This document shows positions 9,201-30,124 of a DNA stretch of 64,000 bases, one piece after another. Both the position numbers and the translations under genes were made by a program. Under the pieces are notes generated by a model. That model had not been told where the DNA came from, made no database searches, and saw only the letters and a list, made by a program, of their open reading frames with translations. The stretch is from a virus, in the IMG/VR virus record IMGVR_UViG_3300031368_000001, positions 1 through 64,000 of that record. One strand, given 5' to 3'. Numbering within the stretch: the stretch's first letter is position 1; every line of letters begins with the position of its first letter.

Positions 9201-9328
9201 TATAAATCTGCACAAAATGGTCGTGTCTCTGCGCAATAACTACCAACATTGCCCTGCCACCATGCTCCCCAGTGAGTAGCAAGATCATAATCAGGCCTGC
9301 CTACAAGAATTTGTCCGTAGTCACTCAT
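6218..9328 (-). CDS. Ser-rich multidomain protein with N-terminal caspase/gingipain-like domain
   Basis: 1036 aa. Residues 1-200 look like a clan CD (C25/CHAT/caspase fold) peptidase: after a hydrophobic strand comes a His-Gly pair (FGHGSS, His67) and, about 35 residues on, a strand ending in Ser-Cys (FNFLSCNLGQS, Cys102), followed by a small-residue helix and GAYGVHAY. A jelly-roll-like domain (about 240-365) and a second beta domain (about 805-910) are joined by long Ser/Glu linkers. The end repeats FKDDGGF. This resembles a modular fibre or surface protein that carries its own protease. Peptidase activity is inferred from the His-Gly/Ser-Cys dyad only. It follows a small hypothetical gene and overlaps the next gene by ATGA. 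Confidence 0.7.
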   Translation of the reverse strand: MSDYGQILVGRPDYDLATHWGAWWQGNVGSYCAETRPFCADLYAANATRTKFLSETPYSRYISVFGHGSSTSWYGQNTQMVFSENSETAAVCANRHFNFLSCNLGQSLASWLVDHGAYGVHAYNDVWTFWLESGAEPDSDSISKYFFNSALMIDQYLIAGWTHGGAHNACLAQYESYINDENVPSYIKADLLADKNAKVFFGSGGESGDGSDVGIDLFPESSSSSASSSSGSSSSCPDLFPGWKPHFDNTEWQLFGPGSWTGAKWKLDEGGEIEIEPIGGWTDCYRPTKMRFTLSGGGSFTIDLYDKTLSSYFLVYEGEVSSGSILELTFHGRAIALLQGWNYLDPNMEITNIEFYGGFSSVSSSDSSSESSSSSESSSSSSESSSSSSESSSSSGSSSSSSESSSSSESSSSSSESSSSSSKSSSSSKSSSSSSESSSSSGSSSSSSESSSSSSESSSSSESSGSSSESSSSSSESSSSSSESSSSSSESSSSSSESSSSSGSSSSSSGSSSSSSESSSSSESSSSSSESSSSSGSSSSSSGSSSSSSESSSSSESSSSSRSSSSSSFTHFPLYSSSSSNSRSSSSSSSESSSSSRSSSSSSESSSSSSESSSSSSESSSSSESSSSSSSEPSSSSESSSSSSSESSSSFESSSSSESSSSFESSSSSESSSSSSSKSSSSSSSESSSSSSESSSSSSESSSSSSESSSLSSSESSSSSSSESSSSSSESSSSSGSSSSSGSSSSSGSSSSSGSSSSSSGSSSSSSESSSSSSESSSSSSESSSSSSESSSSSSESSSSSSSESSSSSSQQAGTICWGHTTGVAETYTKMLDTNWSGTAIISGVGDNEIITFGSGEYVESETWNLGSGSARIIIDKYSAGSGLTPDIEYKTGTTEVLCDADTWHAYNGISFTSTGWVKIKLTWTSSSSSSESSSSSSSESSSSSESSSSSSESSSSSESSSSSSESSSSSESSSSSSESSSSSSESSSSSSESSSSSESSSSSSESSSSSGADFVFKDDGGFDFKDDGGFTWKDS

Positions 9329-13823: not shown

Positions 13824-14297
13824 TTAATACCAGCCAACATCACGATGATAAAATTCACCATAATGTCCGAGATAAGGATATCTAAAAGGACAAACTTGCT
13901 TTTCTCCAGCAATTATCTTTTCAGCATCACGAGGCCAGCCTTTTTTTATAATGTCTTTATGTCTTTTAGTAAGATCCTTTTTCGCAGCTGCTCTAACTAA
14001 AACATCTTCGATTTCAATGGCACTTGCATCATAATCTCGAATGAGTTTTCTTGCAGGTCCAAGAAATTCTTTTTCAACAGCTGATTCTGGTACTTTAGGC
14101 CACCAAGATGGAATTTGTCCTGAAGTTTTTAAGCCTAGTTCCATTTCAGCTTTTGCTACTTTTTTATTTATTAGAGTATCAGTTTCTTTTTCCATTTGTT
14201 TTTTCTGTTTTTCTGTTGGTTTCTTCATTATAGTCAATCCTGCAAATTTTTCACTCCCAGTCGTTATATCTTCGCTAAATGGTTTTATTTTATCCAT
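13824..14297 (-). CDS. tag-family protein, displaced member (GEFYHRDVGWY tag)
   Basis: 157 aa. It starts with MDKIKPFSEDITTG and ends with GEFYHRDVGWY, the two terminal motifs shared by the array at 22.2-26.9 kb, but it sits alone between the tail tube and tail terminator genes. The middle (AIEIEDVLVRAAAKKDLTKR, then IIKKGWPRDAEKIIAG) resembles the helical core of the members at 25426 and 26207. Likely a transposed copy. Function unknown; see the array. Confidence 0.75.
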   Translation of the reverse strand: MDKIKPFSEDITTGSEKFAGLTIMKKPTEKQKKQMEKETDTLINKKVAKAEMELGLKTSGQIPSWWPKVPESAVEKEFLGPARKLIRDYDASAIEIEDVLVRAAAKKDLTKRHKDIIKKGWPRDAEKIIAGEKQVCPFRYPYLGHYGEFYHRDVGWY

Positions 14298-14318
14298 GAT
14301 TATCTCCTTGAAAAATTT

Positions 14319-14786
14319 TTACCTATTAGCTAAAAAGCTTCCCGATGTTCTCGCAGAAGCTCTTCCTACCAATGTATACTCATAATCCTGTCCATAAATA
14401 GTTAAGTTTTTATCATGATAAATCATAGTTTCGCTTAAAAGATCCAGATAATAAAAAGTTCCTGTCACGGAAAGCTTAACATGATCAAGCACACCAGGAA
14501 CATCTTCCAATAAACTATAAGCATCAATCCGTGCTGCTGTAACACTTCTAAGGTTTTTAGCACCAAGAAAAATGGTTAGTCTTCTGGTCCCGGTAAGAGC
14601 CTGATTTACGCGTGAAAAAGAACCTCCGCCATAAAGAATCAGGGCACAGGGTAGAATATATCGAAGTCCGGATAGGCCTTCTGCATCAAAATCTCCCTGA
14701 TATCTTTTAACCGTATTAATAGAAGGGAGTTCAGCTTTGATTAAAGCTATTACAGCATCTTCAAGTTCTTCTATTTTTGTAGTCAT
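14319..14786 (-). CDS. Mu gp37-like (DUF1834) tail terminator / neck protein
   Basis: 155 aa. It has the pattern of Mu gp37-type proteins: an N-terminal helix (IEELEDAVIALIKAELP), a central GxxRRLTIFLGAKNLR strand region, then VLDHVKLSVTG and a terminal DYEYTLVGRAS strand. Family members cap the tail or join it to the head. It follows the gp36-like gene directly, as in Mu-like head modules. Confidence 0.65.
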   Translation of the reverse strand: MTTKIEELEDAVIALIKAELPSINTVKRYQGDFDAEGLSGLRYILPCALILYGGGSFSRVNQALTGTRRLTIFLGAKNLRSVTAARIDAYSLLEDVPGVLDHVKLSVTGTFYYLDLLSETMIYHDKNLTIYGQDYEYTLVGRASARTSGSFLANR

Positions 14787-14806
14787 CTAAATTTTACTCT
14801 CCAATT

Positions 14807-15274
14807 TTACCAATCGTCAAGTGAACCCCCCTCAAGGTCCCATTGACCCATCATATCACCTAACAAATTACCATCTACGTCAACTTTTCCTCTAGTAAAT
14901 TCTGGCTTCACATCTATAGCAGCTGAATCAGGTCCAACCTCAGCAATATCAAGCTGGATGTCTCCATCACGAATAGCTTTTAATTTTTCAACGGCGGCAA
15001 GATATCGTACTAAACGATCTGCTGGGGGACTCTCTCGTCTGGAATAAAGATTATAGATAGCAATATCCACTGACATTTTTCTTACTTCATTGGTAACTGT
15101 AAGTGGAACTATATACTTTTTACGACAGTATATATCTATCTCGCTATCTGCATCTTCGATAGCTCTTGTGATTACAGTTTCGACAATGCTTCCAGTAGCT
15201 AAATCATCTGTGAGTTCAACAAGATGGGATAGCTGAATAGAATTTTCTAAATCAGCTTGTATGGAGTAGGCCAT
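14807..15274 (-). CDS. Mu gp36-like (DUF1320) head-tail connector
   Basis: 155 aa. The features match DUF1320: N-terminal helix with LVELTDDLATGSIVETVITR, then AIEDADSEIDIYCRKKYIVP, then a helix with SVDIAIYNLYSRRE and AVEKLKAIRDGDIQLDI. These are all-helical head-completion proteins. The neighbours (gp37-like downstream, capsid genes upstream) support the call. Confidence 0.75.
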   Translation of the reverse strand: MAYSIQADLENSIQLSHLVELTDDLATGSIVETVITRAIEDADSEIDIYCRKKYIVPLTVTNEVRKMSVDIAIYNLYSRRESPPADRLVRYLAAVEKLKAIRDGDIQLDIAEVGPDSAAIDVKPEFTRGKVDVDGNLLGDMMGQWDLEGGSLDDW

Positions 15275-15283
15275 AGAATTCTC

Positions 15284-15433
15284 CTATTTATTCATATAAA
15301 GTGTGATTAGATCTCCAATATTCTTAGGTTTTTGAACTAAGATTATCTTTGATTTACTTTTATTATTTTCAGAGATCGAGGTAAGAGCTAAAGTTCTTTT
15401 TTTAAAAATTTTATGAAGAAATCTTTTGAACAT
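15284..15433 (-). CDS. small basic hypothetical protein
   Basis: 49 aa, beginning MFKRFLHKIFKKRTLAL and ending LITLYMNK. It has a perfect AAGGAGG seven bases before the ATG and fits the gap between the Ser-rich gene and the gp36-like gene, which is why I call it despite its size. Strongly basic N-terminus, possibly amphipathic. No family recognised. Confidence 0.6.
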   Translation of the reverse strand: MFKRFLHKIFKKRTLALTSISENNKSKSKIILVQKPKNIGDLITLYMNK

Positions 15434-15582
15434 TCACAAACCTCCTTAAATTATTTAACACAAAAGATAGAAGAAAAGTCAAGGTTTATTCCTGGTGAGA
15501 AATCCTCAGCTTCAAAAAAAAATCCTCAGCTTCACATAAAAACTATGTGGAAACCAAGGATTGAATTAATTTATAAAGATTG

Positions 15583-16779
15583 TTATACAGTTCCTGACGA
15601 ACTGCTTGAAGATTCAGAACTACTTGAAGATTCAGAACTTGAACTAGATTCAGATGAACTGCTTGAAGATTCAGAACTTGAACTAGACTCAGATGAGCTG
15701 CTTGATGATTCAGAACTTGAGCTTGATGAAGACTCTGAGCTGCTTGATGATTCAGAAGAGCTGCTTGATGATTCAGAAGAGCTGCTTGATGATTCAGAAC
15801 TTGAAGATGAAGATTCTGAAGATGAGCTGCTTGATGATTCAGAACTGGAGCTTGATTCAGATGAGCTGCTTGATGATTCAGAACTGGAGCTTGATTCAGA
15901 TGAGCTGCTTGATGATTCAGAACTGGAGCTTGATGATTCAGATGAGCTGCTTGATGATTCAGAACTTGAACTAGATTCAGATGAGCTGCTTGATGATTCA
16001 GAACTGGAGCTTGATGATTCAGATGAGCTGCTTGATGATTCAGAACTTGAGCTTGATTCAGACGAGCTGCTTGATGAAGACTCTGATGATGAGCTACTTG
16101 ATGATTCTGAACTGCTGCTTGATTCAGACGAACTACTTGATGATTCAGAACTGGAGCTTGATTCAGACGAACTACTTGATGATTCAGAACTGGAACTTGA
16201 TTCAGATGAGCTACTTGATGAAGATTCTGATGATGAACTGCTTGATGATTCAGATGAACTGCTTGATGATTCAGATGAGCTGCTTGATTCAGATGAGCTG
16301 CTTGATTCAGAAGAGCTACTTGATGACTCAGAACTTGATGAAGAAAGAGGTTCAGTGAAGGCCATTCTCACGAATTTTCCACTAGCAAAGAAGTATTGTA
16401 TGGCTACATCCCCTCCAGTTTCATTTTTCGCTGAAAATTTATCTACAACAAGATCGCCAAGCTCATTATTCCAGACAGTTCCAAGTTCAGCAATATTCCA
16501 TGCAATATCAGGCCCATTATTAAATTTAAGAGTAAGATTTCCATCAGACAGTATAAAACCAACAGTAGCAGGAGTATTATATCCAAGCTCGATTGAATGT
16601 CCAGCAGCAGCAGTCCATGTAGCTTCATGTTTGAGTCTTAACAATCCTCCAACATCTAAAGAGAAAGTAGTACCTGTTGATATCACTACATTTGCAGACA
16701 GATATTCTGTAGGAAAAGAATCAGAAAAGAGCTGAGCTAAAAGCTGCTCTGGGAGCAGAGTTTTCATCTTTGAGGGCAT
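15583..16779 (-). CDS. Ser-rich repeat protein with N-terminal beta domain
   Basis: 398 aa. Residues ~1-145 form a compact beta-like domain (FSLDVGGLLRLKHEATW, then IELGYNTPATVGFILS); the remaining ~250 residues are Ser5-6/Glu repeats ending in GTV. The N-terminal part probably attaches to the virion and the Ser/Glu part extends out as a stalk. It lies inside the head-tail gene run rather than with the fibres, so it may be a head decoration or neck fibre (inference). Long plus-strand open frames over this stretch are artefacts of the repeat. Confidence 0.65.
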   Translation of the reverse strand: MPSKMKTLLPEQLLAQLFSDSFPTEYLSANVVISTGTTFSLDVGGLLRLKHEATWTAAAGHSIELGYNTPATVGFILSDGNLTLKFNNGPDIAWNIAELGTVWNNELGDLVVDKFSAKNETGGDVAIQYFFASGKFVRMAFTEPLSSSSSESSSSSSESSSSSESSSSSESSSSSSESSSSSSSESSSSSSSESSSSSESSSSSSESSSSSESSSSSSESSSSSESSSSSSSESSSSSSSESSSSSESSSSSSESSSSSSESSSSSSESSSSSESSSSSSESSSSSSESSSSSSESSSSSESSSSSSESSSSSESSSSSSSESSSSSSESSSSSSESSSSSSESSSSSESSSSSSSESSSSSSESSSSSESSSSSSESSSSSESSSSSESSSSSSGTV

Positions 16780-16830
16780 TAGTTATCGTTACTCCTGGTA
16801 AAAAAAAGACCATCACTGATTTAAATGTGC

Positions 16831-17100
16831 CTAATCTGGCGGACCATCGCTCCAAGTATCTTGAGACGAGTATGTGCCAGAAATACCTCGATTAGTATTA
16901 CGACTTACACTTCGTCCTCGACTTACACTTCGTCCTTGACCTAGTCCGCCTCTGAGAGGACCAACTCCTAAACCCCGATTATCACGACCTCTGTTAACAT
17001 TAGGATTTAGATAGCCTGGATGATCATAGCCTGCACAATAACCTGCCTGCCTGCCTGTTTTTTTGCCTGCCCCTCGCGGGCCAGTTCTATCACCTAACAT
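16831..17100 (-). CDS. DUF5320-like Gly-rich protein
   Basis: 89 aa. The start MLGDRTGPRGAGKKTGRQAG followed by YCAGYDHPGYLNPN closely matches the N-terminal signature of DUF5320 proteins (pattern M-GDGTGP-G-GP-TGR-GYC-G---PG), which are common in anaerobic bacteria and archaea. The rest is Gly/Arg-rich with a doubled GRSVSR unit. It has AAGGAGACT before the ATG. Such a protein in a virion gene cluster is unusual; role unknown. Confidence 0.7.
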   Translation of the reverse strand: MLGDRTGPRGAGKKTGRQAGYCAGYDHPGYLNPNVNRGRDNRGLGVGPLRGGLGQGRSVSRGRSVSRNTNRGISGTYSSQDTWSDGPPD

Positions 17101-17113
17101 GGTTTAGTCTCCT

Positions 17114-18064
17114 TTACTTATACGCCACAAAAGCCAACCCATCGTAAGTACTATTGTCTGACATACCAACAATGAAATCATTTGTAGCTTCGTAGTGTGT
17201 AAAATAATTTGTGTGTTCAACGCCCTGGATAGCTACATTATCTGTTCCAAATGCTTCAATGGACATAATGACACTTAAAACACCATCTGATACTATATTT
17301 ACTGCAAGGGCTTCTTCGTCAGCTACAGCCCACTTGTACATTGCATCTAAGTAAATAGTAAATGCTCCATGATTTGTTGCACCGGCAGTAGATAATAGTA
17401 TATTCAGATCGCTAACATCATCCCCATTTCCAGCAGCTAATGAAGAAATATCAATTTCAACCCATGTCCATTTTTTTGCAGATACTGCCGGAAGATTAAA
17501 ATTTGTGAGAACTGGTCCAGTATCAACTGTTTGAACATATAAATCACCAGCAGCTAACCTATCGGTAGAATAAATCCAGAATCCAATACTATCATCAACT
17601 TCTAAATCATCATTAGCTCCGATGGTCCCGATAGCGCCATTACCTGCAACGGCAGCAGATGTAAAAGCAACTTTTAATGAATTAGCGCCTGCACGATAAA
17701 TATCTGTATCCGCTGTAAGCGTTACCGGAGTTCCAACATTAGTCCATTCACCAGTGGGAGAATCATCCAGGTATACTCTAGTTTCACCACTAGCATCACT
17801 CGCATCCGTCAGTGTCCCAAGAGCTACCAACTTAAGTTTTGGCAGTCCTGTAATTGATGTTGTAGTTCCTTGATTTCCGCTGGGATGATCTGCTACGTAG
17901 ATATTGCCTTTAACTAATACATTTCCAGGAAATATCTTAGAATAAACAACCTCACCTGTAGCAGTATTGAGGAAAAACACCATCGCAACAAACAAAACAG
18001 AAATTGCTGACATCGATATAAGGAGAGTTTTCCAGTGAAAAATTTTCTTAAACATTTTAAACAC
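17114..18064 (-). CDS. membrane-anchored or exported beta-rich protein
   Basis: 316 aa. The N-terminus has a single hydrophobic segment (TLLISMSAISVLFVAMVFFL) that could be a signal anchor. Residues ~90-250 look like a carbohydrate-binding-module jelly roll (TDIYRAGANSLKVAF, then KKWTWVEIDISSLAAG). The C-terminal part is also beta-rich. A membrane anchor is unexpected between capsid genes. Family not identified; it may be a head fibre whose hydrophobic start is not a true signal. Confidence 0.55.
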   Translation of the reverse strand: MFKMFKKIFHWKTLLISMSAISVLFVAMVFFLNTATGEVVYSKIFPGNVLVKGNIYVADHPSGNQGTTTSITGLPKLKLVALGTLTDASDASGETRVYLDDSPTGEWTNVGTPVTLTADTDIYRAGANSLKVAFTSAAVAGNGAIGTIGANDDLEVDDSIGFWIYSTDRLAAGDLYVQTVDTGPVLTNFNLPAVSAKKWTWVEIDISSLAAGNGDDVSDLNILLSTAGATNHGAFTIYLDAMYKWAVADEEALAVNIVSDGVLSVIMSIEAFGTDNVAIQGVEHTNYFTHYEATNDFIVGMSDNSTYDGLAFVAYK

Positions 18065-18132
18065 CTCCAGTTAAAGAAATTACATTTCCAGTTAAAGAAA
18101 AGTTAAAAATTATCAGCTTAATCCAGTACTCA

Positions 18133-18492
18133 TTACTCAAATCCGGTAAGTTCTTTAACACGCCTTTCAATAAACTTGGTAATTGAGACTCTCGGAAATT
18201 CTTCAGCATTTGCCTGATCCAGATATTTTTCAAGCATATCTACATGAGGTTCTGCCTCAAGAAATTCCTTTGCTTCAGCTACTGTCATTTGAGAAAGATC
18301 TGCAATTACAGGAATCTCATTACCAGCCGGCTTGCTTGGTCTCTCCTTGCTTTTTTTAATAGCACCATTTTCAAGAAGAGTATTTCTATCAGCTGGCTTA
18401 AAAAAATCTTTTTCAACAATCTGTCCTACCACCAGCTGATAGCTCTTACCATTTTTTCCGTACTTTACCTGACGAACAAGTTCAAAGCTCAT
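18133..18492 (-). CDS. Mu gp35-like small head protein
   Basis: 119 aa. A short N-terminal beta part (VKYGKNGKSYQLVVGQIVEK) and acidic-helical C-terminus, directly downstream of the capsid gene, where Mu-like phages place gp35. It lies two genes before the DUF5320-like gene. The homology is suggested by position and the GKSYxxGxxV pattern, not by strong motifs. Confidence 0.5.
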   Translation of the reverse strand: MSFELVRQVKYGKNGKSYQLVVGQIVEKDFFKPADRNTLLENGAIKKSKERPSKPAGNEIPVIADLSQMTVAEAKEFLEAEPHVDMLEKYLDQANAEEFPRVSITKFIERRVKELTGFE

Positions 18493-18588
18493 ATAACCTC
18501 CTTTTTTTTAGAGACTGAGAAAACTTTTTTTTCGTAAGACTAAGAAAACTCAGTGAGCTTTGATTAATCAACGTAATTACTTGAAATA

Positions 18589-19542
18589 TTACGCTATTAC
18601 GGTTTGAAATAAATACCCGGCGGTGGAACACACGCACTTCTCATCTGAAATTTGATGCTGAATACGGATTACATCAGACTTCTTTGGTTTATCCTCGTAT
18701 GTTTCAGCCTGTAAACCTGCACTCTTTAGAGTGTAAGCAAAACTCATCGTTTTCTTAGACGGTCTTGGATTGACTATTCCAACCCATACATTCTTTCCCC
18801 AGACACGTGAAATTGCTTCTGCAACACCAGGCATAGTGGTAATTTCTCTGGCACCTGGAAACACTGCATTAAGACCAAACAGCCTTCTTGGAAAACCATC
18901 GTCGGTTAATTGCCGGGAATCTTGTTCTCTCATTAAGGCACGAATAGCAGGATGTCGTCTGACTGTTCTCCAAACGGTAACAGGAATAGCAATCGTATTT
19001 GGCTCAGCAGCATTCAGGGATACTTTTTCCCTTGCATCCTCAATATCCCCTTCAGGATCAGAGTTTACAAAATCATCCCACATATTTCCACCGGCAAGGG
19101 CATTGATGTAAGTACCATCAAAGTACACACCATTTGCTACTGCTACATTTGTAAACATGTCTGCAATTCGGACTTCATAGTTAAGCAATAAGAGCTCAAG
19201 AGTGATTTCCTGAGTAGTGACTGCAAGATCCATATACTTCTTCCACTTTTTAAACTCGCGCCAGTCAATTGCTTTTTCCAGCGTATGCTCTTCGCAGTGA
19301 TAACTATCGGTCGATGTTTTCCAATCGAACGTGGTTGCCCTTGCACCCAGTGCTCTGATATCATCATAAGAACTGTTAAGATTGGTCTTATCAAAAATAA
19401 AATAAGTTCCATCTTCTTCACCCTCAGGGACGTCTACATAAGGAGCAAGCTTTGATGCAACCAGTCCATTCTGCGGGTAAGCAATGGCCATTTTTGTTAA
19501 GACCGGGTTGATCAAAACCTGATCTGTTTTGGTAATAAACAT
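18589..19542 (-). CDS. major capsid protein (HK97-type fold expected)
   Basis: 317 aa. Size, position after the protease/scaffold and decoration genes, and features typical of capsid proteins: N-terminal arm ending KLAPYVDVPEGEEDGTYFIF, spine-helix-like stretch (LAVTTQEITLELLLLNYEVR), a conserved IAIPVTVWRTVRRHPAIRAL segment and C-terminal IRIQHQISDEK. The ribosome binding site is GGAGG. Likely the most abundant virion protein. Confidence 0.8.
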   Translation of the reverse strand: MFITKTDQVLINPVLTKMAIAYPQNGLVASKLAPYVDVPEGEEDGTYFIFDKTNLNSSYDDIRALGARATTFDWKTSTDSYHCEEHTLEKAIDWREFKKWKKYMDLAVTTQEITLELLLLNYEVRIADMFTNVAVANGVYFDGTYINALAGGNMWDDFVNSDPEGDIEDAREKVSLNAAEPNTIAIPVTVWRTVRRHPAIRALMREQDSRQLTDDGFPRRLFGLNAVFPGAREITTMPGVAEAISRVWGKNVWVGIVNPRPSKKTMSFAYTLKSAGLQAETYEDKPKKSDVIRIQHQISDEKCVCSTAGYLFQTVIA

Positions 19543-19843
19543 GATAAGTCACCTCCGTAACATTAAAACTGTTACAATTAATTAATAGGTTTCTCACAAT
19601 CAACATCATGGATGTGATTATGACACTAAACCTCATAGAGGCAACTTAAGCATTACTTAAGTTAAAGAAATTTTTAAAACTGGCCTAATATAATTAAGCC
19701 AGTGTTAATAACAAGCTAATATTAATCAGCCAGTTAATTACAAGCTAATATTAATTAGCCAGTGTTAATTACAAGCTAATATTAATTAGCCAGTGTTAAT
19801 AACAAGCTAATATTAATCAGCCAGTGTTAATAACAAGCTAATA
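19543..19843. repeat. intergenic 31-bp tandem repeats, about five copies
   Basis: No gene. From about 19690 to 19843 a ~31-bp unit (gctaatattaatcagccagtgttaataacaa with small changes) is present about five times. On the coding strand each unit begins with GGCTGATTAATATTAG, that is, the last codons and stop of the decoration gene that ends at 19844. AT-rich with short palindromes (TAATATTA). Confidence 0.75.
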
Positions 19844-20302
19844 TTAATCAGCCTTGACTACGATAGTACGAGTCAGAAACAGCTTAAATTTTGCTTTGGC
19901 TACACATCCTTCTAAAGCGATTCCTGCGATCATTTTACCAGTATAGCTAGCGCCAGTAATTGTTTGAAACCAACCATTATCAGAATCCACAGCAGCATTG
20001 ATGGCTTCCACCAATGCATTTCTGATTATTCCAGCACCATCATAACAATATGCCCATGTAGGACCAAACAATACGACCTTGACAGTCTCACCCTCGAGAC
20101 CATCTTCTTGGGCAACGCCTTCAATGATAGCTCCAATAGTTGTATCATCACCAGCTTCCAACGCGTGTACCTGATAATCATTTGAACCAGGTTTTACGGC
20201 ATGGTACTGATAAACACGTTCATCGTTGTTATTTAATTCTACAGTATAGCTCCCATGAAATGGATTATCCAAGGGAATAGCTGGAGTTGCTCTTCTAGAC
20301 AT
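19844..20302 (-). CDS. capsid decoration / head stabilisation protein (DUF2190-like)
   Basis: 152 aa, between the protease/scaffold and capsid genes, the usual slot for a decoration protein. The sequence is beta-rich (YTVELNNNDERVYQYHAVKP, GEEVKVVLFGP-type strand, Gly-rich turns), similar in size and order to DUF2190 head proteins. The 3' end is repeated in tandem downstream. Confidence is mainly from synteny. Confidence 0.6.
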   Translation of the reverse strand: MSRRATPAIPLDNPFHGSYTVELNNNDERVYQYHAVKPGSNDYQVHALEAGDDTTIGAIIEGVAQEDGLEGETVKVVLFGPTWAYCYDGAGIIRNALVEAINAAVDSDNGWFQTITGASYTGKMIAGIALEGCVAKAKFKLFLTRTIVVKAD

Positions 20303-20391
20303 GATTCTTCACCTCCTAGTTATAAAAATTATCAAATTACTTACAAAAATTACTTACAAAAATTACCTACAAAAAATACCTACAGAGAAAA

Positions 20392-22197
20392 CTACTTTCC
20401 TTGAGTATCCATGACAGCCTTAAAGGCTACATCATAGGAGACTTTATTCTCCTCGGCGTACTTGGTTATTTCACGATCAAGCTTAGCGCCTTCTTCGTCA
20501 ACACCAGTTGGGGTAATTTCTTCTTCCTCTTCAATTACCTTACCAAATGTATCCAGAGGAACAAGCAGCTTGCCCTCTTTATGACGATCAATGATCGCAC
20601 TAAAGAGCTCAGAGAATTTTTGCCATGGAGTCTTTTCATCCTCACCCTCAGCAAACTTGAACATGTTCGTCCAGTCAAGGGCATTGGCATAATTCAATAA
20701 TCCAAGTTCATCAACCACTGCCGGGGCTAAGCCTTTCTTTTTCAGATCCTCGGCCCATCTCTGTACATCTTTCATATGAGATGCACGTTTCTCCGCTGAT
20801 CTTTCTTTTTCAACGATCCCGATTTTGCTTTCTTGAGCGGTGAGCTTGGATGTCAGATCAGAAATCTCGGTATTTTTTGCATTTAGCTGTTCGCTGAGAG
20901 CAGTTAATTGTTCCTGAACCTGCTTTAAATCCTCAGCATCCTTCTTGGGTGGTTCAGGGTATTTATATGGTGATGGCTTTTTGCCAACATTCGCCTTAGC
21001 CTTGGAGTCCGCTCCAACGATCTCTTCTCCCTTTTTGAAGTCACCTTCAACAGCGAGAAACACAGAGATTTTTTCAGGTTCTACTTTCCTGACTGTTCCG
21101 ATGAGCTTGCTATCTGCACCCTTAACTTTCTCACCTTCTTTAAATTCACCCTCAACTGCATTTATTTCAACCATAACAGTTTTTCCGGCAAACTTATTGG
21201 GATCTTCCTCACCGACAACAGCCTTTGCCTTTGACTTTGTTCCGGTTATTTCTTCGTCGTCCTGAAAGTTCTCTCCTGAGGTAAGAACAATGACTAATTT
21301 CTTTTCATCGAACTCCTCAAGCGTACCGACAACCTTTGATGCATTGCCAGTCACTTCCTCTCCAACCTCAAAATCCCCGGAGATGGATTTGATCGGTACA
21401 GTTATTTTCTTCATATTGTCACCTCCTAGCCAAAATGTTTCTTCCTCACTGTCTGGCCGAACAATCGGTAGACAGAAAGAATCTTCGCGGTTATCCTCGC
21501 CGTACCTTGCAACGATATCACTAAGACTCTTTATCCTTGGAATATCGGCTCCCAACAGAGCAACTCTCCGGAGAACCGGCCCAAACTCTTGATTATCAAA
21601 AACAAAATTACGATATATCTCTACTGAAGGATAACGATATGCACCATTTTTAATAATGTCAACAATTTGTTTTGGGACATCTTTGAAATCTGCATAAAGT
21701 TTTTTCCCTTTAGTCCAAACTTTGGATACCCATCCGGCAGACGGAAGTCCAGATTTTTGTAATAGATCTTGATTTTCATCATGTCCAAGTACCACCATAG
21801 GTGGTCTATGCGAATCTTTCAGTTTAGAAAAATTTGCGATGATTTTGTTAAGATCTTCTTCAGTATACTTTTTAGATTCTGCCTGGCCTATTTCAAAAAT
21901 TTGAACTCCGTTACATTCACCAAATTCTTGAAAGTTTCCACTAAGTTGTGTGAGAAGAATAGGACAACCATGCTGGTATGCGTGTATACACTGCTTGATT
22001 GGCTCGAGGTCTGAAAAGTCATCTGTCATCGGACATTCGGGCGCAAAGTGACATAAAGATTTTGGCCAGGCATATTCAGGGTAAAGCTCAGTTTCAGGAA
22101 TTGGATATGGATAAGTTTCTTGACCTGTTGAATATGTCCATGGCAGTGAAAAATCTTCCTTTGGAAAAGGGAAGGGATGTTCGTAAATTTTTTTCAT
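20392..22197 (-). CDS. fused prohead protease and scaffold (Mu gpI-like)
   Basis: 601 aa. Residues ~85-225 match Mu gpI-type prohead proteases: KYTEEDLNKIIANF, then VVLGHDENQ (His139), PSAGWVSKVW, GAYRYPSVEIYRN (Ser191) and LRRVALLGADIPRIKSL. Residues ~270-420 hold four copies of a GDFxxGEEVxGxxSK module. Residues ~430-490 are coiled coil, and the rest is acidic and helical, as expected of a scaffold released by self-cleavage. A Cys-containing N-terminal extension (1-80) is unusual. It sits just downstream of the tag-family array, whose members could be its substrates (inference). Confidence 0.8.
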   Translation of the reverse strand: MKKIYEHPFPFPKEDFSLPWTYSTGQETYPYPIPETELYPEYAWPKSLCHFAPECPMTDDFSDLEPIKQCIHAYQHGCPILLTQLSGNFQEFGECNGVQIFEIGQAESKKYTEEDLNKIIANFSKLKDSHRPPMVVLGHDENQDLLQKSGLPSAGWVSKVWTKGKKLYADFKDVPKQIVDIIKNGAYRYPSVEIYRNFVFDNQEFGPVLRRVALLGADIPRIKSLSDIVARYGEDNREDSFCLPIVRPDSEEETFWLGGDNMKKITVPIKSISGDFEVGEEVTGNASKVVGTLEEFDEKKLVIVLTSGENFQDDEEITGTKSKAKAVVGEEDPNKFAGKTVMVEINAVEGEFKEGEKVKGADSKLIGTVRKVEPEKISVFLAVEGDFKKGEEIVGADSKAKANVGKKPSPYKYPEPPKKDAEDLKQVQEQLTALSEQLNAKNTEISDLTSKLTAQESKIGIVEKERSAEKRASHMKDVQRWAEDLKKKGLAPAVVDELGLLNYANALDWTNMFKFAEGEDEKTPWQKFSELFSAIIDRHKEGKLLVPLDTFGKVIEEEEEITPTGVDEEGAKLDREITKYAEENKVSYDVAFKAVMDTQGK

Positions 22198-22225
22198 GAT
22201 CTAACCTCGTACTAACATTCTTAAG

Positions 22226-22804
22226 TTATTCAGCATAAGATATATCAGGATGCATAAATCCGTCTTTATCAATATCCGCAAATCCCCAGGCCTTTATTAC
22301 AACATTTGCATCTGAACCTTTGGGAGCAACCTTTGGATCTGTATATCGAGTAAATCCAGTTTCAGGTCCCTTCTTATAGAGTTTTTCCACATCGCTGATT
22401 TCTACTTTTGAGAAACCCATTTTCAGCAATGCGTCTCTTTGCTCTTTTTCATAATATCCTGCAAAACCAGGAAGCTTCTTATTCTCAGGAACACTTTCCA
22501 GAAGTTTTTTCTCTTCAGATGTTAATTCTCGATTTATCGAAATACTATCACCTGTGGTGATATCATCACTAAAAGCTTTAATCTTTGGTTGATCCAAAGG
22601 TTCCTGAGAAACTTCGTTAGGTTCATGAGAAACTTCGTTAGGTTCATGAGGAACTTCGTTAGGTTCATGAGGAACTTCGTTAGGTTCATGAGGAACTTCG
22701 TTAGGTTCATGAGGAACTTCGTTATAATTTCTATCGCCTTCACCCCCTGTTGTTTCTTCTACTCTTCCCGTCGTTATGTCTTCTGAAAAAGGTTTTATTT
22801 CCAT
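22226..22804 (-). CDS. tag-family protein with two N-terminal motifs and HEPNEVP repeats
   Basis: 192 aa. It starts MEIKPFSEDITTG, then has six tandem PHEPNEV heptads (a 21-bp DNA repeat), then a second motif IKAFSDDITTG, as if a new N-terminus had been added in front of an old one. The C-terminal tag is absent; the protein ends HPDISYAE. The core includes LLKMGFSKVEISDVEKLYKK. It lies immediately upstream of the protease/scaffold gene. Confidence 0.75.
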   Translation of the reverse strand: MEIKPFSEDITTGRVEETTGGEGDRNYNEVPHEPNEVPHEPNEVPHEPNEVPHEPNEVSHEPNEVSQEPLDQPKIKAFSDDITTGDSISINRELTSEEKKLLESVPENKKLPGFAGYYEKEQRDALLKMGFSKVEISDVEKLYKKGPETGFTRYTDPKVAPKGSDANVVIKAWGFADIDKDGFMHPDISYAE

Positions 22805-22827
22805 GATCTAACCTCGTTAATTAAAAA

Positions 22828-23445
22828 CTAATACCAGCCTACATCTCTGTGATAATATTCGCCAAGCTTTATTCCCCAACTTTTCCCGGGAATCCACATT
22901 TTCTTCATTACTTCAAGTAAATTTCTCCAGTACTCCTCAAATGCCCTCTTTTCTTTATCAAGAATTCTTGGATCAATCTTGCCACGCTCGTCTCTGGGAA
23001 TAGCTTTTTCCCACTCTACCCAGTGAAATTCTTTTGCTTTTTTTGTGGTTTCTGGATCTTGGAAATCTTCGCTCTGGAAGTTTTTATTCTTGAGGTTTTC
23101 GGAATTTTTGGAGATTAAAATTTTTGGAAATATCTTTTTAAATAATTTTGGCCAGCCAACTACCAAGATTTGTTTTTGCTTTTCAACAATATCCTTACCA
23201 GCGAATAATGCTTGAGCTGCATTATCTACCTCTTTTGACTCAGTTTCAAGGGTATCTTTAACTCTCTTATATCCTGGTTCAAGACCGTCACCAGTTGCTA
23301 GTAGCATCCATTGACTATAAAGTTTTCTGCGTGTGATAGGGTTGATTTGGAAGATATCAGTGGGAGCTGAAGAATTCAAAGATTCATCGTATGTTTCGAC
23401 ATGACCCTGAATATCTGATGAGAAAGATTTTATTGTTGTTGCCAT
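22828..23445 (-). CDS. tag-family protein
   Basis: 205 aa. N-terminus MATTIKSFSSDIQGHVETYD (the IQGHVExYDES version of the motif, also in 25035-25424), C-terminus GEYYHRDVGWY. The core has AAQALFAGKDIVEKQKQIL, close to the helical core of the 13824 and 26207 members. Positively charged middle. Part of a same-strand run of seven members; the intergenic gap upstream (23446-23588) holds two 20-bp tandem copies and no gene. Confidence 0.75.
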   Translation of the reverse strand: MATTIKSFSSDIQGHVETYDESLNSSAPTDIFQINPITRRKLYSQWMLLATGDGLEPGYKRVKDTLETESKEVDNAAQALFAGKDIVEKQKQILVVGWPKLFKKIFPKILISKNSENLKNKNFQSEDFQDPETTKKAKEFHWVEWEKAIPRDERGKIDPRILDKEKRAFEEYWRNLLEVMKKMWIPGKSWGIKLGEYYHRDVGWY

Positions 23446-23588
23446 AAAGTTACCCTAACAGACATAAAAAATTTTTGTCAACCCTTTTTTAAACAAGAAT
23501 AGTGATATTTAAACAAGAATAGTGATATTTAAGTAAGAATAATGGAAAAAGAAAAAATTAGTCAAGGTTTTTTTAGTATACTCTTTTT

Positions 23589-24242
23589 TTAGTACCACCC
23601 AACATCTCTGTGGTAATATTCACCAGATTTCTCCAAAAACCCTTCAACAACCGGTATATATCCAGCACTTCTCAAAAATTCTCCAGCTTTGTGTCTTTTC
23701 AGGGCTGCTAAATCCTTCTTACTTAATTTTTTTGCCCATTCAGGTTTTGTGAGTCGCATTATTTTCTTGCCAGCCTCTTCTTGAGTAACACCAAGATCTC
23801 TCATCAAACCTTGCGTAACGGAACGATCGGTTATTCCCGCTTTCTGAGCTGCCTGAAATCTAAGCCATCTGTTATCCTGCTTCCTTAAAAATTCCACTAA
23901 ATCTTTATTATATTTCTGGGAGTTCCAACCCTGATACTGAGTATGTTTAACATCATCCCAAAGACGATTTTTTTCTTCATGAATCCAGGCTTCCCGAAGA
24001 TGTGTAGCGCCTACCATCTGTATGTAGAGATTAGCTTTATCTACATAAGTTTTGGCATTTTTTAGATCATCAGCGGTTACTTCAGACGGTTTTTTGATGG
24101 GACCTGTATAAATAGGGGTGTGTTTTGGCTGGGTAGGAACCTCAATTTTAGCACCAGGGAAATCTATAATATCACCTGGATCAAAGAAAGTTCCTGTGGA
24201 TATATCTTCTGAGAAGGGTTTAAGAGTATTCATATTAATCAT
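23589..24242 (-). CDS. tag-family protein
   Basis: 217 aa. Starts MINMNTLKPFSEDISTG, ends GEYYHRDVGWY. Core: AKTYVDKANLYIQMVGATHL and QGLMRDLGVTQEEAGKKIMR, with a stretch WDDVKHTQYQGWNSQKYNKD that is shared in pattern with the 25426 and 26207 members (LWKDEKYLQLQ..., TWVDWQYLDPG...). So at least three members share a helical segment around a WxD-x-QYL-x-G-x-xS-x-YNK pattern. Confidence 0.75.
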   Translation of the reverse strand: MINMNTLKPFSEDISTGTFFDPGDIIDFPGAKIEVPTQPKHTPIYTGPIKKPSEVTADDLKNAKTYVDKANLYIQMVGATHLREAWIHEEKNRLWDDVKHTQYQGWNSQKYNKDLVEFLRKQDNRWLRFQAAQKAGITDRSVTQGLMRDLGVTQEEAGKKIMRLTKPEWAKKLSKKDLAALKRHKAGEFLRSAGYIPVVEGFLEKSGEYYHRDVGWY

Positions 24243-24252
24243 TTCCTTATGT

Positions 24253-24945
24253 TTAATACCACCCTACATCTCTGTGGTAATACTCACCAAACGAACCTAG
24301 GTTAGCTTCACCTTTAATTTCTACACCTTTTGGTGTGTAGGCTTTTCTTCCTTTTATGATCACATCTACTTTTCTTTTCCATATTCCTTTATGTTCTTTG
24401 AGATATTTCAGTGCCTGATTCACCGACCAGCCACTCTTTTCCACTAAATTGCTCACTTCCCACCGGGTTACTCCCCAGGGTGGAATTCCTCTATGCTCCT
24501 CACCGCCTTTTATACTCTGTACTTTCAGAATATTATTTCTAGAATAACCCATATCCCGTAGAATCTTATCATGAAATGTAAAATCTCCTCCAGTCCCTAT
24601 AGCCAAAGCAGCTCCTAATTGTGCTACATACCGATTCAGTATTTTTGAATCAAGCTTAAGTTTTGGATTTTCTTTATTAAGCACTGCCGCCACTTTTTCT
24701 GCTCTTTCATCCCATATTTCCTGACGAATCCCTCCACCAGGTTGCACTGGGCTATTTCTATAAATTGGTTCTTTTCTTTCTTTTGGCTGTAGAGTAACAA
24801 GTTTTAAAATATCTTCGAGCAGACCAAACTCATCCGGGACACCGTAAGTAATATCGTCAGAGAATGGTTTAACAAACGAACCTTCTGGTATTTCTGGAAG
24901 ACTTGTTTGTTCATTTATATCGTCAGAAAATGATTTCATGTCCAT
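24253..24945 (-). CDS. tag-family protein with doubled N-terminal motif
   Basis: 230 aa. It begins MDMKSFSDDINEQ and repeats the motif at residue ~24 (VKPFSDDITYG). It ends SFGEYYHRDVGWY. The middle has AAVLNKENPKLKLDSKILNR and a helix-turn-helix-like KSGWSVNQALKYLKEHKGIW. No family recognised. It is separated from 23589-24242 by 10 bases. Confidence 0.75.
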   Translation of the reverse strand: MDMKSFSDDINEQTSLPEIPEGSFVKPFSDDITYGVPDEFGLLEDILKLVTLQPKERKEPIYRNSPVQPGGGIRQEIWDERAEKVAAVLNKENPKLKLDSKILNRYVAQLGAALAIGTGGDFTFHDKILRDMGYSRNNILKVQSIKGGEEHRGIPPWGVTRWEVSNLVEKSGWSVNQALKYLKEHKGIWKRKVDVIIKGRKAYTPKGVEIKGEANLGSFGEYYHRDVGWY

Positions 24946-25034
24946 GATTTATTTAATATCACCCTTTGTCCTTATGATAGTATTTGTAACACAAGAATTT
25001 TCCGTTAATTTTTTTATTTATAGCGACCCAGATT

Positions 25035-25424
25035 TTATTCTCCTCTCTGTGCAAATGGGCTTTTACCATCATTGATTCTCTTCATTGCATGTTTTATAGC
25101 TTTATCAACTATCCGTTTAGTAGGTTTATTTCCTTTAAGAAGATAATTAATTTCATCCTTTGTTAATGTAGGCACAAGAGATGGTATTTCTATTTCTTTG
25201 CCATCTATACCTACACCGATAGATAACTCAGTAGATATATGCCCATCTGGTCTTTTTAATGTACCTAAAAATCCCGGGCCTTTAGGAGTACCATCCGTCC
25301 TTAATCCCCATCCTTTTTCTCTAACTGTTTCTTTATGATCGAAAAAATCAGCTTGAGACCTGGTAAAAGATTCATCATAATTTTCAACATGCCCCTGGAT
25401 ATTTGAGGAAAATGGCTTGAACAT
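25035..25424 (-). CDS. tag-family N-terminus fused to a conserved phage domain, no C-terminal tag
   Basis: 129 aa from the ATG at 25424 (MFKPFSSNIQGHVENYDESF). The frame is open to 25502, but that part overlaps the previous gene. Residues ~45-128 (RTDGTPKGPGFLGTLKRPDG, then SIGVGIDGKEIEIPSLVPTL, ending INDGKSPFA) form a module I have seen in many unrelated phage proteins near head genes, with no known activity. It shows that the N-terminal motif is added to different bodies. Confidence 0.75.
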   Translation of the reverse strand: MFKPFSSNIQGHVENYDESFTRSQADFFDHKETVREKGWGLRTDGTPKGPGFLGTLKRPDGHISTELSIGVGIDGKEIEIPSLVPTLTKDEINYLLKGNKPTKRIVDKAIKHAMKRINDGKSPFAQRGE

Positions 25425-25425
25425 C

Positions 25426-26205
25426 TTAATACCACCCCACGTCTCTGTGATAATATTCACCATATAATCTAAATGTTTTTTCACTAACAGGATATTTACC
25501 ATCCAGAAGCTTTATGCCTCCTAAAATTCCCCATCCTCTTACAATGATTTGTGTTTCATGAGGATTGAGTATTTCACCTTTTGCTGCTTTCTCCACAGTA
25601 AGCCTAACATCTCTGGCAGATACATTTAAAGTTTTGATAGCTTTTGATGCATGATAGGTATACGTATCTTTTTTTGGATCATGCCACCACCATGTAGGAA
25701 CTACCCCAGGACTTGCATAAATTTTTTCCTGTTCTTTTGCTGAAAGTGCAATCTGTTCCTTTCCTCTTGCTTTTACAGGTTTTTTCACAAGTTCATCGAT
25801 CTGAGCCTTAAGATGTTTCTGAAGCTCCTTCGGAATGGGTTCTTTACCTTCAAGGATTCTTGATAGGCGATAGTCATTATCATGAAATTCGAGAAAGTTT
25901 AAAAGCTCTTTATTATATGCTGAAGATTTAGGGCCTTGAAGCTGTAGATATTTCTCGTCTTTCCAGAGACTATCTAATTTATACTCTATCCACTTCTTTC
26001 TATTATCCTCTATAATACCAGCCTGATCAAAATATATTTTGACTTTTTCATCTAAGTCCTTACCTTGTTGAAGCTGATTAACAGTGACATCGGAGTAAAA
26101 AATAGGAGTTGGTTCTGTAAGATTTATTCCTATAGAATCCGGTGTGGAATCTACTCCTGTGAAATCTGCTCCTGTAGATATAGTTTCTGAAAAGGATCTG
26201 AGCAT
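25426..26205 (-). CDS. tag-family protein
   Basis: 259 aa. N-terminus MLRSFSETISTGADFTG, C-terminus YGEYYHRDVGWY. Core: QGKDLDEKVKIYFDQAGIIE, then YLQLQGPKSSAYNKELLNFL, then ARDVRLTVEKAAKGEILNPH and RGWGILGG. This core aligns by eye with 26207-26935 (VEKAIKRAAAGNITEADKRM) and 13824-14297. The longest fully tagged member. Confidence 0.75.
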   Translation of the reverse strand: MLRSFSETISTGADFTGVDSTPDSIGINLTEPTPIFYSDVTVNQLQQGKDLDEKVKIYFDQAGIIEDNRKKWIEYKLDSLWKDEKYLQLQGPKSSAYNKELLNFLEFHDNDYRLSRILEGKEPIPKELQKHLKAQIDELVKKPVKARGKEQIALSAKEQEKIYASPGVVPTWWWHDPKKDTYTYHASKAIKTLNVSARDVRLTVEKAAKGEILNPHETQIIVRGWGILGGIKLLDGKYPVSEKTFRLYGEYYHRDVGWY

Positions 26206-26206
26206 C

Positions 26207-26935
26207 TTAATACCATCCTACATCTCTGTGATAATATTCACCAAAACTTCTTATTGCCCTCATTGTCTTTTCAGGAAATTCGCGTTTTCCTTTTATAATC
26301 CTCTCTGCTTCATATGAAGGCCAGCTTAATCGTATCATCCGTTTATCTGCTTCGGTTATATTTCCTGCTGCAGCTCTCTTAATTGCTTTTTCCACATCAG
26401 CGGCTGAGGCCCCCTGACCTTCTATTACTTTTTTTATGTAATAGGTTAAACTTTTTGTGGCTGGTACGGGATCCCACCATGGAGGAACATGCCCACCAGT
26501 ATTCCATATTCGTTCCTTATCGCGCTTTGTTATTCCAGGAACTTTTTTCTTGATTAGATCTTCAATCTCTTTCTTCATTGCCGCTACTTTCTCGGTAGGC
26601 ATATGGGTTCCTACATCTTTTATGCCTCTAAAACCAAACTCTTTATCTGCTGTCTGACAAGCCTTCAAGAAATTCTTGTTATAATAATCTCCTTGAAAAC
26701 CACCTGGATCTAAATACTGCCAATCTACCCAGGTATCTTTTAGTTTTTTCAGAATGAAATTTTTGTGCTTGGTATTAATAACTCTAGCATATTTGAAATA
26801 TAATCCTAATTTCTCTTTTTGGGTTCTTCCATGTCTGATATATCCTATCGTTACATCTTCAGGAGCGAAGGAATCTATTGTACTATCTATATAATTTTTA
26901 ACACTACCCTGTACGCTATCTGAAAAAGTTTTCAT
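26207..26935 (-). CDS. tag-family protein, first of the array
   Basis: 242 aa from the ATG at 26935 (MKTFSDSVQGSVKNYIDST). AGAGG lies just before it; the upstream frame to 27025 is only translated tandem repeats (YKLLTYKLLTYKL). Ends SFGEYYHRDVGWY. Core: LYFKYARVINTKHKNFILKK, WQYLDPGGFQGDYYNKNF and SAADVEKAIKRAAAGNITEA. It begins the array in the direction of transcription. Confidence 0.75.
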   Translation of the reverse strand: MKTFSDSVQGSVKNYIDSTIDSFAPEDVTIGYIRHGRTQKEKLGLYFKYARVINTKHKNFILKKLKDTWVDWQYLDPGGFQGDYYNKNFLKACQTADKEFGFRGIKDVGTHMPTEKVAAMKKEIEDLIKKKVPGITKRDKERIWNTGGHVPPWWDPVPATKSLTYYIKKVIEGQGASAADVEKAIKRAAAGNITEADKRMIRLSWPSYEAERIIKGKREFPEKTMRAIRSFGEYYHRDVGWY

Positions 26936-26988
26936 TTTTGCCTCTAGTTTATAAGTAAGTAGTTTATAAGTAAGTAGTTTATAAATAA

Positions 26989-27126
26989 TTATTTTATGAT
27001 TAATACAGGTATAAATCCATTCCAACCAAATTCATAATAGGGGTATTTTTCATTTAGATCCTCTATGATGTTCCAGCGAGTTTTCAGTGAAAGATATGAT
27101 TCAAGGTAATACCGAATAATGTTCAT
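26989..27126 (-). CDS. small hypothetical protein
   Basis: 45 aa, MNIIRYYLESYLSLKTRWNI to NGFIPVLIIK. It begins two bases after the stop of the next gene upstream. Aromatic-rich, no signal peptide. The ribosome binding site is weak, so translation would depend on coupling. Kept because it fills the gap in the operon and looks protein-like. Confidence 0.4.
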   Translation of the reverse strand: MNIIRYYLESYLSLKTRWNIIEDLNEKYPYYEFGWNGFIPVLIIK

Positions 27127-27761: not shown

Positions 27762-29530
27762 GATTTATTTCTCTCAATAAAAAAATCTCCGTAACTAATT
27801 CTCACTAGCTGCGGAGTCTCTCAATAAAACCCCTCCCCATATATCCCACATCTACCTCTTATCACTTCCTCACGGCACCTCGTACACTCGTAACACGGCA
27901 GACTCTTCCTCATACTTTTCCCTTGTTTCCGTCCTAACATATCCCTCCCCTACAAGAAATATCCTCCCCTACAAGAAAATTCAAGCTCTGCGCACCTTTA
28001 TCACAATCCAAACTTTTGCACAGCCACTACCACCATCTGGGCTGGCGCAGCGACTACCATCAGAATATGGCCACTACCACCATCTAGGCTGGCGCAGCGA
28101 CTATCAAAAAACCTACCCCCTAAGCAGCCACTACTCATGTTAACACCATAACCGTAGCAACCACTGCAAAAATCACGGTCTAATAATTTCTTTACCACTA
28201 CCTAGCGCGCACAAATTACTCTGCGTACAATATCACAAATTACTCTGCGCACACTACCCTAACCAGAAATATTACTTCCCTTGTCTATTGCACTCTCTAC
28301 CCTGTCTATCAGCATATATCTCTCCCTCTACCAGGAATACTACCTTCAGTGCACTCTGTTCCTTGTGCCTGCATTGATCTTCCTTATCCCCACCACCTGG
28401 CTACCACCCCCATCCCCACCACCACTCTCGTTATACATACCACCACTCTCGTTATACATACTTTATTACTAAAACCACGGTGTTGTCTTTGAAAATGGCT
28501 CCAGTTACTGTGCAAACATAAGCTATATATGAGCATCCTGGTTTTTAAAATTTAGGGTATGGGTATTTGGGCGTCAGACCTCTTTTCTAACTCCCGTGAG
28601 TTTTTGCCCTACCATCTATTTCTTACCACTTTACTCGGCGCACCTTCTACCCTGTTCATGCAGCCATGAAAGCCAGGGCTGGCGCGGGTTGTAGAGGGAG
28701 GCTGGTTTGAGGAAGAGGGAGAGGGGAGTCTGTTTTTTCTTTTAACTCATTTTCTCGACAATTCAACTACTTTTTAAACTAGCCTCTTAATAGAGTGATT
28801 TCACTACATTTTTCAGTCCTAAAATATTTCTGGCACTTTTCCGGCCTATAAAAGTCATTCTCAGTAGTCGGTGCCCACTTTTCACTGGCCAGTGCCCTAC
28901 TTCCGGCTGAGTTTCACCTTTTTGCAGTGTTTTAATCGTGAAGCGGCTGGTACAAAGATGAATGTTGATATTCCAAAGGACCTGTACCAGGAATAGAGGC
29001 TTGGATGCTATTGGTACATGGCTGATGTATGAATTAGAAGAGATGAAGAAGACAGGAGTAAGTATAAGCATGAAATTTGTTACATCATTTCGGTAGGTTA
29101 GATAAATAAGTTAAAGTAATCCTTTAGGTATTAAAACCAACGCCATACTCTCATCCTCTCTTTTCTCTCATATCTATGCTTCTCTCATGCCAACTCTTTG
29201 AAAGGTCTATGTATCCTTTTCCTTGTGCAAGTATCAGGTGCAAGTATCAGGTGCAAGTATCAGGTGCAAGTATCAGATGCAAGTATCAGATGCAAGTTCC
29301 CAGGTGCTACAAGCCAGCGCCGAGGTAAATATATATCCTATTACTTCTGCCAGCTCCGAGGAAACAAAGCCAGCCCATAGGTGCTTGCTATTCATGTACT
29401 TCTACCAGCCCTACTTGATGCCGGAGCGAAGCTGTCGCTTCGCTTTAGTCTCAGCCCCGCTCGCTTGCGGCTCGCTGTTTAGTGGATCTTATTCAATGCT
29501 TCAGCCACGAAGGAATTAAGACGCTCCTAG
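27762..29530. other. gene-free divergence region with tandem repeats
   Basis: No reading frame here looks like a real protein. What I see: pyrimidine-rich plus strand at about 27830-28480; a 47-bp repeat, two copies with one mismatch over 33 bases, at 28024-28105 (ccactaccaccatct, then ggctggcgcagcgacta); doubled ~20-bp units at 27940-27980, 28200-28250 and 28425-28465; and a 12-bp perfect palindrome CACTGGCCAGTG near 28890. Near 29430-29455 a hairpin AGCGAAGC/GCTTCGCT leads into the structured block. It lies between the leftward and rightward arms, so promoters or an origin could be here. Confidence 0.5.
29225..29302. repeat. 13-bp tandem repeat, about six copies
   Basis: The unit gtgcaagtatcag repeats without gaps from 29225; copies 5 and 6 start with atg and the last one decays. 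No gene. The period is not a multiple of three. Confidence 0.85.
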
Positions 29531-29936
29531 GGTCGCGGTTAGTAAGCGCTACTAAGCTCGAAAGGACCCGAGCAAAGTATCGCTAACAAAGGGGGTTGTT
29601 CTGCGTCCAAATTAACCAGTCGAAGAAACATGACTGGTCAATTTTCCTTATAGAGCTGTTCTACTAAGTATTAATTATTATTCGCTAACAAAGACAACAA
29701 CGAATAATAACGAATACTAAGTATCACGAACGCTCTATCAACGCCCCTTAGATCCCTTCTGGGTGAGCAACCAAGAGGCTACTCGCCTGGCCACATTATA
29801 CCTAAGTCCCGCCATGTCAAGACCCAAGCCCTTCGAAACGAAGGGTTGAGGCGGCAAGTAAATCGGTTCCTTCCAAAAAAATAAACAACGCATTTTTTCG
29901 GTTCTTTCCAATTTACTTTTGCCTCAAGATCTTGAG
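29531..29936. ncRNA. candidate large structured RNA
   Basis: About 400 bases without a gene are almost filled by well-ordered stems: (a) GTTAG 29538-29542 / CTAAC 29583-29587 enclosing GCTCG/CGAGC; (b) ACCAGTC/GACTGGT 29615-29638; (c) a long hairpin 29651-29737 (TAGAGC/GCTCTA, GTTC/GAAC, a 10-of-11 pair stem, then TTATTATTCG/CGAATAATAA); (d) CTTAG/CTAAG 29747-29806 enclosing the 9-bp CTGGGTGAG/CTCGCCTGG; (e) CCCTTCG-AAA-CGAAGGG 29829-29845; (f) TTGAGGC and AAGTAAAT 29846-29863 pairing with 29911-29927. A 14-bp palindrome CTCAAGATCTTGAG follows. No homology to a known class checked; strand undetermined. It could also be a leader for the gene at 30125. Confidence 0.55.
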
Positions 29937-30124
29937 CATAGCGGTTTAAATTATAACAAACGAGTTGCAGTTATTTGAATACTGACAAAGATGTTTGTGA
30001 GAAGTCCTCTCGGTGGATTGTTAATTAAATTTTATTTTTATTAATTCTTAACATGAATTGCCTAAGGCCCGAAGCTCAAAGCTGGACGGGAGCTACACTG
30101 AGCAGTTCACGAAAGGAGGATGTT

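Follow-up and report, generated by a model that had tools for sequence, protein, structure and literature searches.

The window analysed here comprises bases 1-64,000 of a viral record with a total length of 108,285 bases. Leftward genes, including those for a major head protein and a head maturation protease, occupy its first 27.7 kb, and rightward genes begin at about 30.1 kb; a terminase-like gene of this phage lies far off, at about 95 kb of the record. A densely folding segment is flanked by the left, minus-strand late arm on one side and the right, plus-strand early arm on the other, which agrees with the position between divergent arms given in the initial annotation. The first good late gene is found at 27,693, and the roughly 1.8 kb between it and the segment is mostly noncoding, the part at 27.8-29.5 kb being rich in repeats and noncoding. 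At 29,225-29,297, a 13-bp repeat, GTGCAAGTATCAG, occurs five to six times head to tail, and the cumulative GC skew of the window turns within the same 1.8-kb stretch; judging from sequence, the two features possibly mark a replication origin. Relatives of the phage, sought through its 383-aa early protein, capsid protein, terminase and helicase, were limited to one near-identical partial record and one remote relative. The former does not contain the region of interest, its gene order placing the record beyond it, and the arm model R1 described below finds nothing there.

Some other features of the record can be mentioned here. At least six leftward ORFs at 13,824-27,025 (minus strand) have a common N-terminal 'KPFSDDITTG'-like stretch and a C-terminal 'GEYYHRDVGWY' or a near variant, and the proteins differ in size while their ends are common; these ends are perhaps virion or targeting tags. 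One more start-like copy of the N-terminal stretch is present at 89.2 kb of the record. Proteins with very long Ser/Glu-rich repeats (SSSSSES) are encoded at 6,218-9,328 and 15,583-16,779 (minus strand), and DNA repeats resembling those coding for SSSSSES are found at the start of the window (1-1,000). A run of proteins resembling, by eye only, methyltransferases and sugar or glycan enzymes is located at 77-84 kb of the record (L003:13,245-19,636).

The minus strand of 29,510-29,943 folds at -173.6 kcal/mol with 154 base pairs in 434 nt, as compared with a mean of -116.9 (sd 5.8) for 300 dinucleotide shuffles (z -9.7), and the excess stability of the plus strand is weaker (z -7.4). In a folding scan of the whole 64 kb with 300-nt windows on both strands, 29,551-29,850 on the minus strand ranked first; rank 2 was 19,501-19,950 (minus strand), where a 31-bp tandem array separates two genes. 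The packed stems pointed out at 29,531-29,936 in the initial annotation are thus present, and even denser than it stated, and the shuffle comparison that it had proposed bears out their excess stability. No convincing ORF overlaps the segment, the longest one inside being of 57 aa with a TTG start, in keeping with the earlier view that no gene fits. Rfam 15 gave no match at gathering score and no relevant one when relaxed to E 5, so that the absence of a specific match also stands, and neither a tRNA gene in the window (ARAGORN) nor anything useful in a blastn search of the region against phages and plasmids was found. With high confidence, 29,510-29,944 can be regarded as a real structured RNA of the minus strand.

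This RNA consists of two domains, each of which folds with excess stability by itself on the minus strand. Domain 1 (29,808-29,944; z -6.9) comprises a closing helix, an arm, and a side hairpin. The closing helix pairs CCGCUAUG with CAUGGCGG and then CUCAAGAUC with GGUCUUGA, and the side hairpin, CCCUUCGUUUCGAAGGG, folds at 29,829-29,845. The arm (29,855-29,919), which is matched by the R1 model, shows covariation and is shared with other RNAs, is composed of an outer helix, a twofold-symmetric 6x6 purine loop, an inner helix, and an apical loop in this order. Sequence and alignment place the two loop strands at 29,900-29,909 (GGAAAGAACC) and 29,865-29,874 (GGAAGGAACC); the loop reads UGGAARGAACCG on both strands, R being a purine position, and is flanked by G-C and G-U pairs. 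Domain 2 (29,510-29,796; z -7.1) is multibranched with at least four hairpins, and the evidence for it as an RNA element is its folding energy. One of its hairpins, with an ACCAGUC/GACUGGU core, folds at 29,612-29,644. Another, at 29,662-29,723, is the long hairpin already noticed in the initial annotation; it is real, with 23-nt arms (29,662-29,684 and 29,701-29,723) that are 87% complementary.

Domain 1 begins directly after a promoter-like site on the minus strand, PA (29,950-29,979), recognized as an extended -10 sequence match: TTCAAA and TATAAT are separated by 18 nt, and TGT just precedes the second hexamer. The last base of the site is 29,950, and folding begins at about 29,944; a transcription start is predicted at about 29,944-29,942. 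PA is the sole extended -10 match of at least 10/12 in the window, where matches of that strength number 29 overall. Since promoter-like sites as a class are not enriched in the window (6 observed versus 10.3 expected from shuffles), the location of PA at the fold's 5′ edge is no more than suggestive. Between PA and the late genes of the window, the minus strand offers no further good promoter match. As to the extent originally assigned, 29,531-29,936 does hold the strongest-folding stretch, but the 5′ end lies nearer 29,944, and in a fold of 29,300-29,945 the hairpins extend beyond 29,510 to about 29,420, so that the position of the 3′ end is uncertain; among the terminator-like sites listed, none lies on the minus strand in this stretch. 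Between the two domains, perfect TTGACA and TATAAT hexamers can be read on the minus strand at 29,795-29,820. The usual promoter spacing is 17, from which both the 14 nt of this pair and the 19 nt of the podophage matches described below depart, and the former is too short for an ordinary sigma-70 promoter; the pair may be a second start or a coincidence.

As the arm helix has near-identical strands on both sides of the loop, viral contigs were scanned by loop letters alone (GGAARGAACC twice, 10-40 apart). This pattern was found in 50 stretches, 11 of which kept both flanking helices, with different letters and within long noncoding folds, while the rest were clearly separate; the criterion was at least 9/12 pairs in the outer helix and 5/5 in the inner helix, and cross-paired flanks reach 9/12 in 0.6%. 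A wider pattern, GGAARRAACC, gave no new arm in viral contigs. The 11 viral arms are related to one another, and blastn aligns them with the window RNA in the arm only, with no homology detected between the window RNA and the other arm-bearing RNAs outside it. Genome contigs scanned with the loop letters yielded two more arms (L101 and L164), both in Rhodobacteraceae; the remaining matches there were rejected as coding sequences or tandem repeats, judging from their flanks. Among 13 distinct arms, 92% of cells pair, a fraction that is biased for the viral arms because the search for these used the loop letters of the window itself and pairing was a ground for choosing them, and 13 of the 19 pairs change on both sides. 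The covariation score of these arms is 0.68, as compared with 0.18 in shuffles and at most 0.15 when the partners are slid. G-U pairs outnumber A-C oppositions 22 to 1, which fixes the folding strand of the arm. Covariation in relatives, named as a check in the initial annotation, was thus obtained for the domain 1 arm, but no relatives of domain 2 were found.

In the arm model R1, contigs with the same letters used as decoys score at most 24 bits versus 48-67 bits for the phage and plasmid arms, and true arms overall span 38-67 bits; the 55.6 bits of the window arm are partly by construction, the window being included in R1. Two weak matches near the decoy level, L242 (28 bits) and L243 (25 bits, three in tandem), were dropped. 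R1 detected no arm in ICP1, BRock or GiJojo and only a 13.5-bit match in a Bacteroides phage. Samples of 398 phylum and 289 class genomes yielded no further convincing arm besides that of the starting genome. In the mobile-element RNAs tested, the arm is embedded in an extended noncoding fold of its own strand, and Rfam 15 matched none of the arm-bearing RNAs tested. A reading of AAGGAA as a Shine-Dalgarno or CsrA site was discarded because the first loop strand of the window has AAAGAA instead.

The 11 viral arms sit in podophage-like contigs from other metagenomes, in which Pfam recognizes a head-tail connector and whose terminase is a relative (55.6% identity) of the one in Pelagibacter phage Hodr. 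The RNA of these contigs is bordered on one side by leftward genes (by eye, single-strand-binding-like ones and others) and on the other by rightward terminase genes; in the window and the podophages alike, it is placed at the early/late junction and reads toward the late genes. Contigs fetched through the podophage terminase contained the arm in 5 of 80, two of the five being already known records; the region itself is missing from many of the 80. TTGACA-N19-TATAAT (or TATACT) is conserved between RNA and terminase genes in six arm loci, or in seven if a weaker TAGACA match is counted, and because of this separate promoter match the podophage RNA need not be a late leader. Upstream of the podophage RNAs themselves, no sigma-70 consensus could be found. 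In 31 of 43 contigs checked, the late-gene strand holds the strongest fold upstream of terminase, frequently at 1.2-2.0 kb, a figure that is drawn from the best of many windows without a shuffle control and is to be taken as a lead; these folds differ between subgroups. Other large folds without the arm occur upstream of terminase, near the early/late junction, in related podophages (L257, L258, L297, L308, L322, and L326), with UGUGUGUGU in 23 of 34. An Rfam search on 13 such contigs returned one tRNA and nothing else.

When one Rhodobacteraceae arm element was used in blastn, 87 plasmids were retrieved, mostly from Rhodobacterales; these copies are free of the pairing bias mentioned above, as they were found by DNA similarity. 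In 8/8 plasmids examined, 39-44 bases separate the start of the element from that of ardC, and the two point in opposite directions; the identity of ArdC was confirmed in one plasmid (Pfam ArdcN, 4.6e-42). At L212:8,930-9,300 and in other plasmids, an unannotated conserved structured RNA thus adjoins ardC and is read away from it, heading no conserved operon. In plasmid pP129_f of Phaeobacter gallaeciensis P129, for instance, the element is located near 8,960-9,300. The loop of the plasmid RNA is GGAGGGAACC/GGGAGGAACC. For 22 aligned Rhodobacterales sequences, RNAalifold gives -114 in the sense and -83 in the antisense orientation, with 165 G-U versus 21 A-C and 33 of 84 pairs covarying. R1 matches are sporadic among Rhodobacteraceae genomes (15/198), the diverged copies scoring 38-46 bits, and all carriers of the arm found are mobile elements or sporadic loci. 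The arm is very probably a real RNA element, a module with covarying helices common to phage and plasmid RNAs. No description of the arm or the plasmid RNA was found in the open-licence literature searched, and one may exist elsewhere. The proposal of an undescribed large structured RNA in the initial annotation is upheld by the excess stability of one strand's fold, the promoter match where this fold begins, the lack of an Rfam match, and the shared, covarying arm of domain 1.

To our knowledge, very few large structured RNAs have been described from phages, none of them with a function that is established. The nearest in kind are GOLLD, a noncoding RNA, likewise large and ornate, that occurs in phages and prophages and forms an RNA-only cage, and ROOL, a large ornate and oligomeric phage or prophage RNA whose solved example of 659 nt is an eight-chain cage (PMC12286853). 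Although the likeness to GOLLD and ROOL drawn in the initial annotation holds for the kind of object, the window RNA matches neither Rfam model; GOLLD is often longer than 800 nt, about twice the length of the window RNA, and both GOLLD and ROOL are often, not universally, found near tRNAs or tRNA islands, which are absent from the window. Membership is disfavoured by the Rfam models, tRNA proximity, and length, and the window RNA is neither GOLLD nor ROOL. OLE RNA, also large and structured, dimerizes through a symmetric A-A contact (PMC12286853), which is the nearest analogy to the symmetric purine loop; however, that contact joins two chains whereas the window loop lies within one helix, OLE has no Rfam match to the window RNA, and it occurs mostly in Gram-positive extremophiles. 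The lytic phage ICP1 produces an approximately 800-nt noncoding transcript, its most abundant one, from an orf-less stretch adjoining the lysis cluster (PMC7567579), but the arm is absent there and no Rfam match exists. The STAXI motif, like the plasmid relatives, is a structured element near antirestriction genes and was suggested to be single-stranded DNA (PMC2864571); it consists of repeated pseudoknots, however, and the Rfam STAXI model was unmatched in every locus tested.

Given the computed fold and its strand, the recurring arm and the junction position common to two phage groups, we propose that a noncoding RNA of about 435 nt, perhaps up to 525 nt, is made leftwards from PA at the early/late junction. 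Domain 1 would fold first, its arm presenting the twofold-symmetric purine loop as a docking site for a second RNA copy or a protein, and domain 2 would form a compact multibranched fold. The twofold symmetry of the loop suggests a symmetric partner, namely a second RNA or a dimeric protein. The RNA may then build up during infection as a stable particle and act in trans, as is suspected for GOLLD and ROOL, yet as a separate family. We give this account as a whole, a stable trans-acting noncoding RNA with a docking arm, an even chance.

The main rival is a cis-acting leader of the late transcript, which would modify RNA polymerase, as put and EAR RNAs do, or delay late transcription. The window RNA precedes the late arm and has the same direction, the roughly 27 kb of leftward genes have in PA their only strong upstream promoter match on the minus strand, and the podophage RNAs likewise read toward late genes; with no better promoter match before the late genes, a leader role keeps some plausibility in the window itself. 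However, the first good late gene lies about 1.8 kb away, across DNA that is mostly noncoding, the podophages have a separate promoter match after the RNA, and the plasmid RNA points away from ardC. The last two points argue for an RNA acting in trans and not for a simple leader, and we consider the leader rather unlikely, while trans action in place of a cis role could fall either way. A special case of trans action is a counter-defence RNA, made on entry to inhibit a nuclease or toxin of the host or to serve it as a decoy, for which the direct adjacency of the plasmid relatives to an antirestriction gene and the mobile or sporadic nature of every carrier can be cited. As the sequence suggests no defence target and the podophage neighbours are terminase genes, this appears unlikely.

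Folding may instead be relevant at the DNA level, as in a replication origin or a single-strand site. The skew turn and the 13-bp repeats would fit an origin, although skew turns at any change of gene direction, and the suggestion made for STAXI points the same way, as does the leading region of conjugative plasmids, which enters single-stranded, with ardC acting in the recipient (PMC7213743). The wobble pairs are nevertheless strand-asymmetric, one strand folds better, a promoter match stands at the 5′ edge, and a double-stranded DNA phage has no obvious single-stranded stage here, so that a DNA element is quite improbable. Chance palindromes or repeat decay without function, which the noncoding and repeat-rich surroundings at 27.8-29.5 kb might suggest, are strongly disfavoured by the z of -9.7 and the independently recurring, covarying arm.

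Beyond the stable trans-acting RNA proposed for the window, the arm might mark an unnamed superfamily of large RNAs that move between unrelated phages and plasmids and, while otherwise different, have a single biochemical role in common, either self-assembly or the capture of some conserved protein of the host; we hold this broader reading only tentatively. The recurrence of the module in three unrelated settings provides a handle that has no counterpart in GOLLD and ROOL. Since the plasmid version is carried, beside an antirestriction gene, by plasmids of culturable Paracoccus, Phaeobacter, and Sulfitobacter, deletion, pull-down, and structural work would be directly possible. Judging from the podophage loci, the early/late junction may commonly harbour structured RNAs that have been overlooked.
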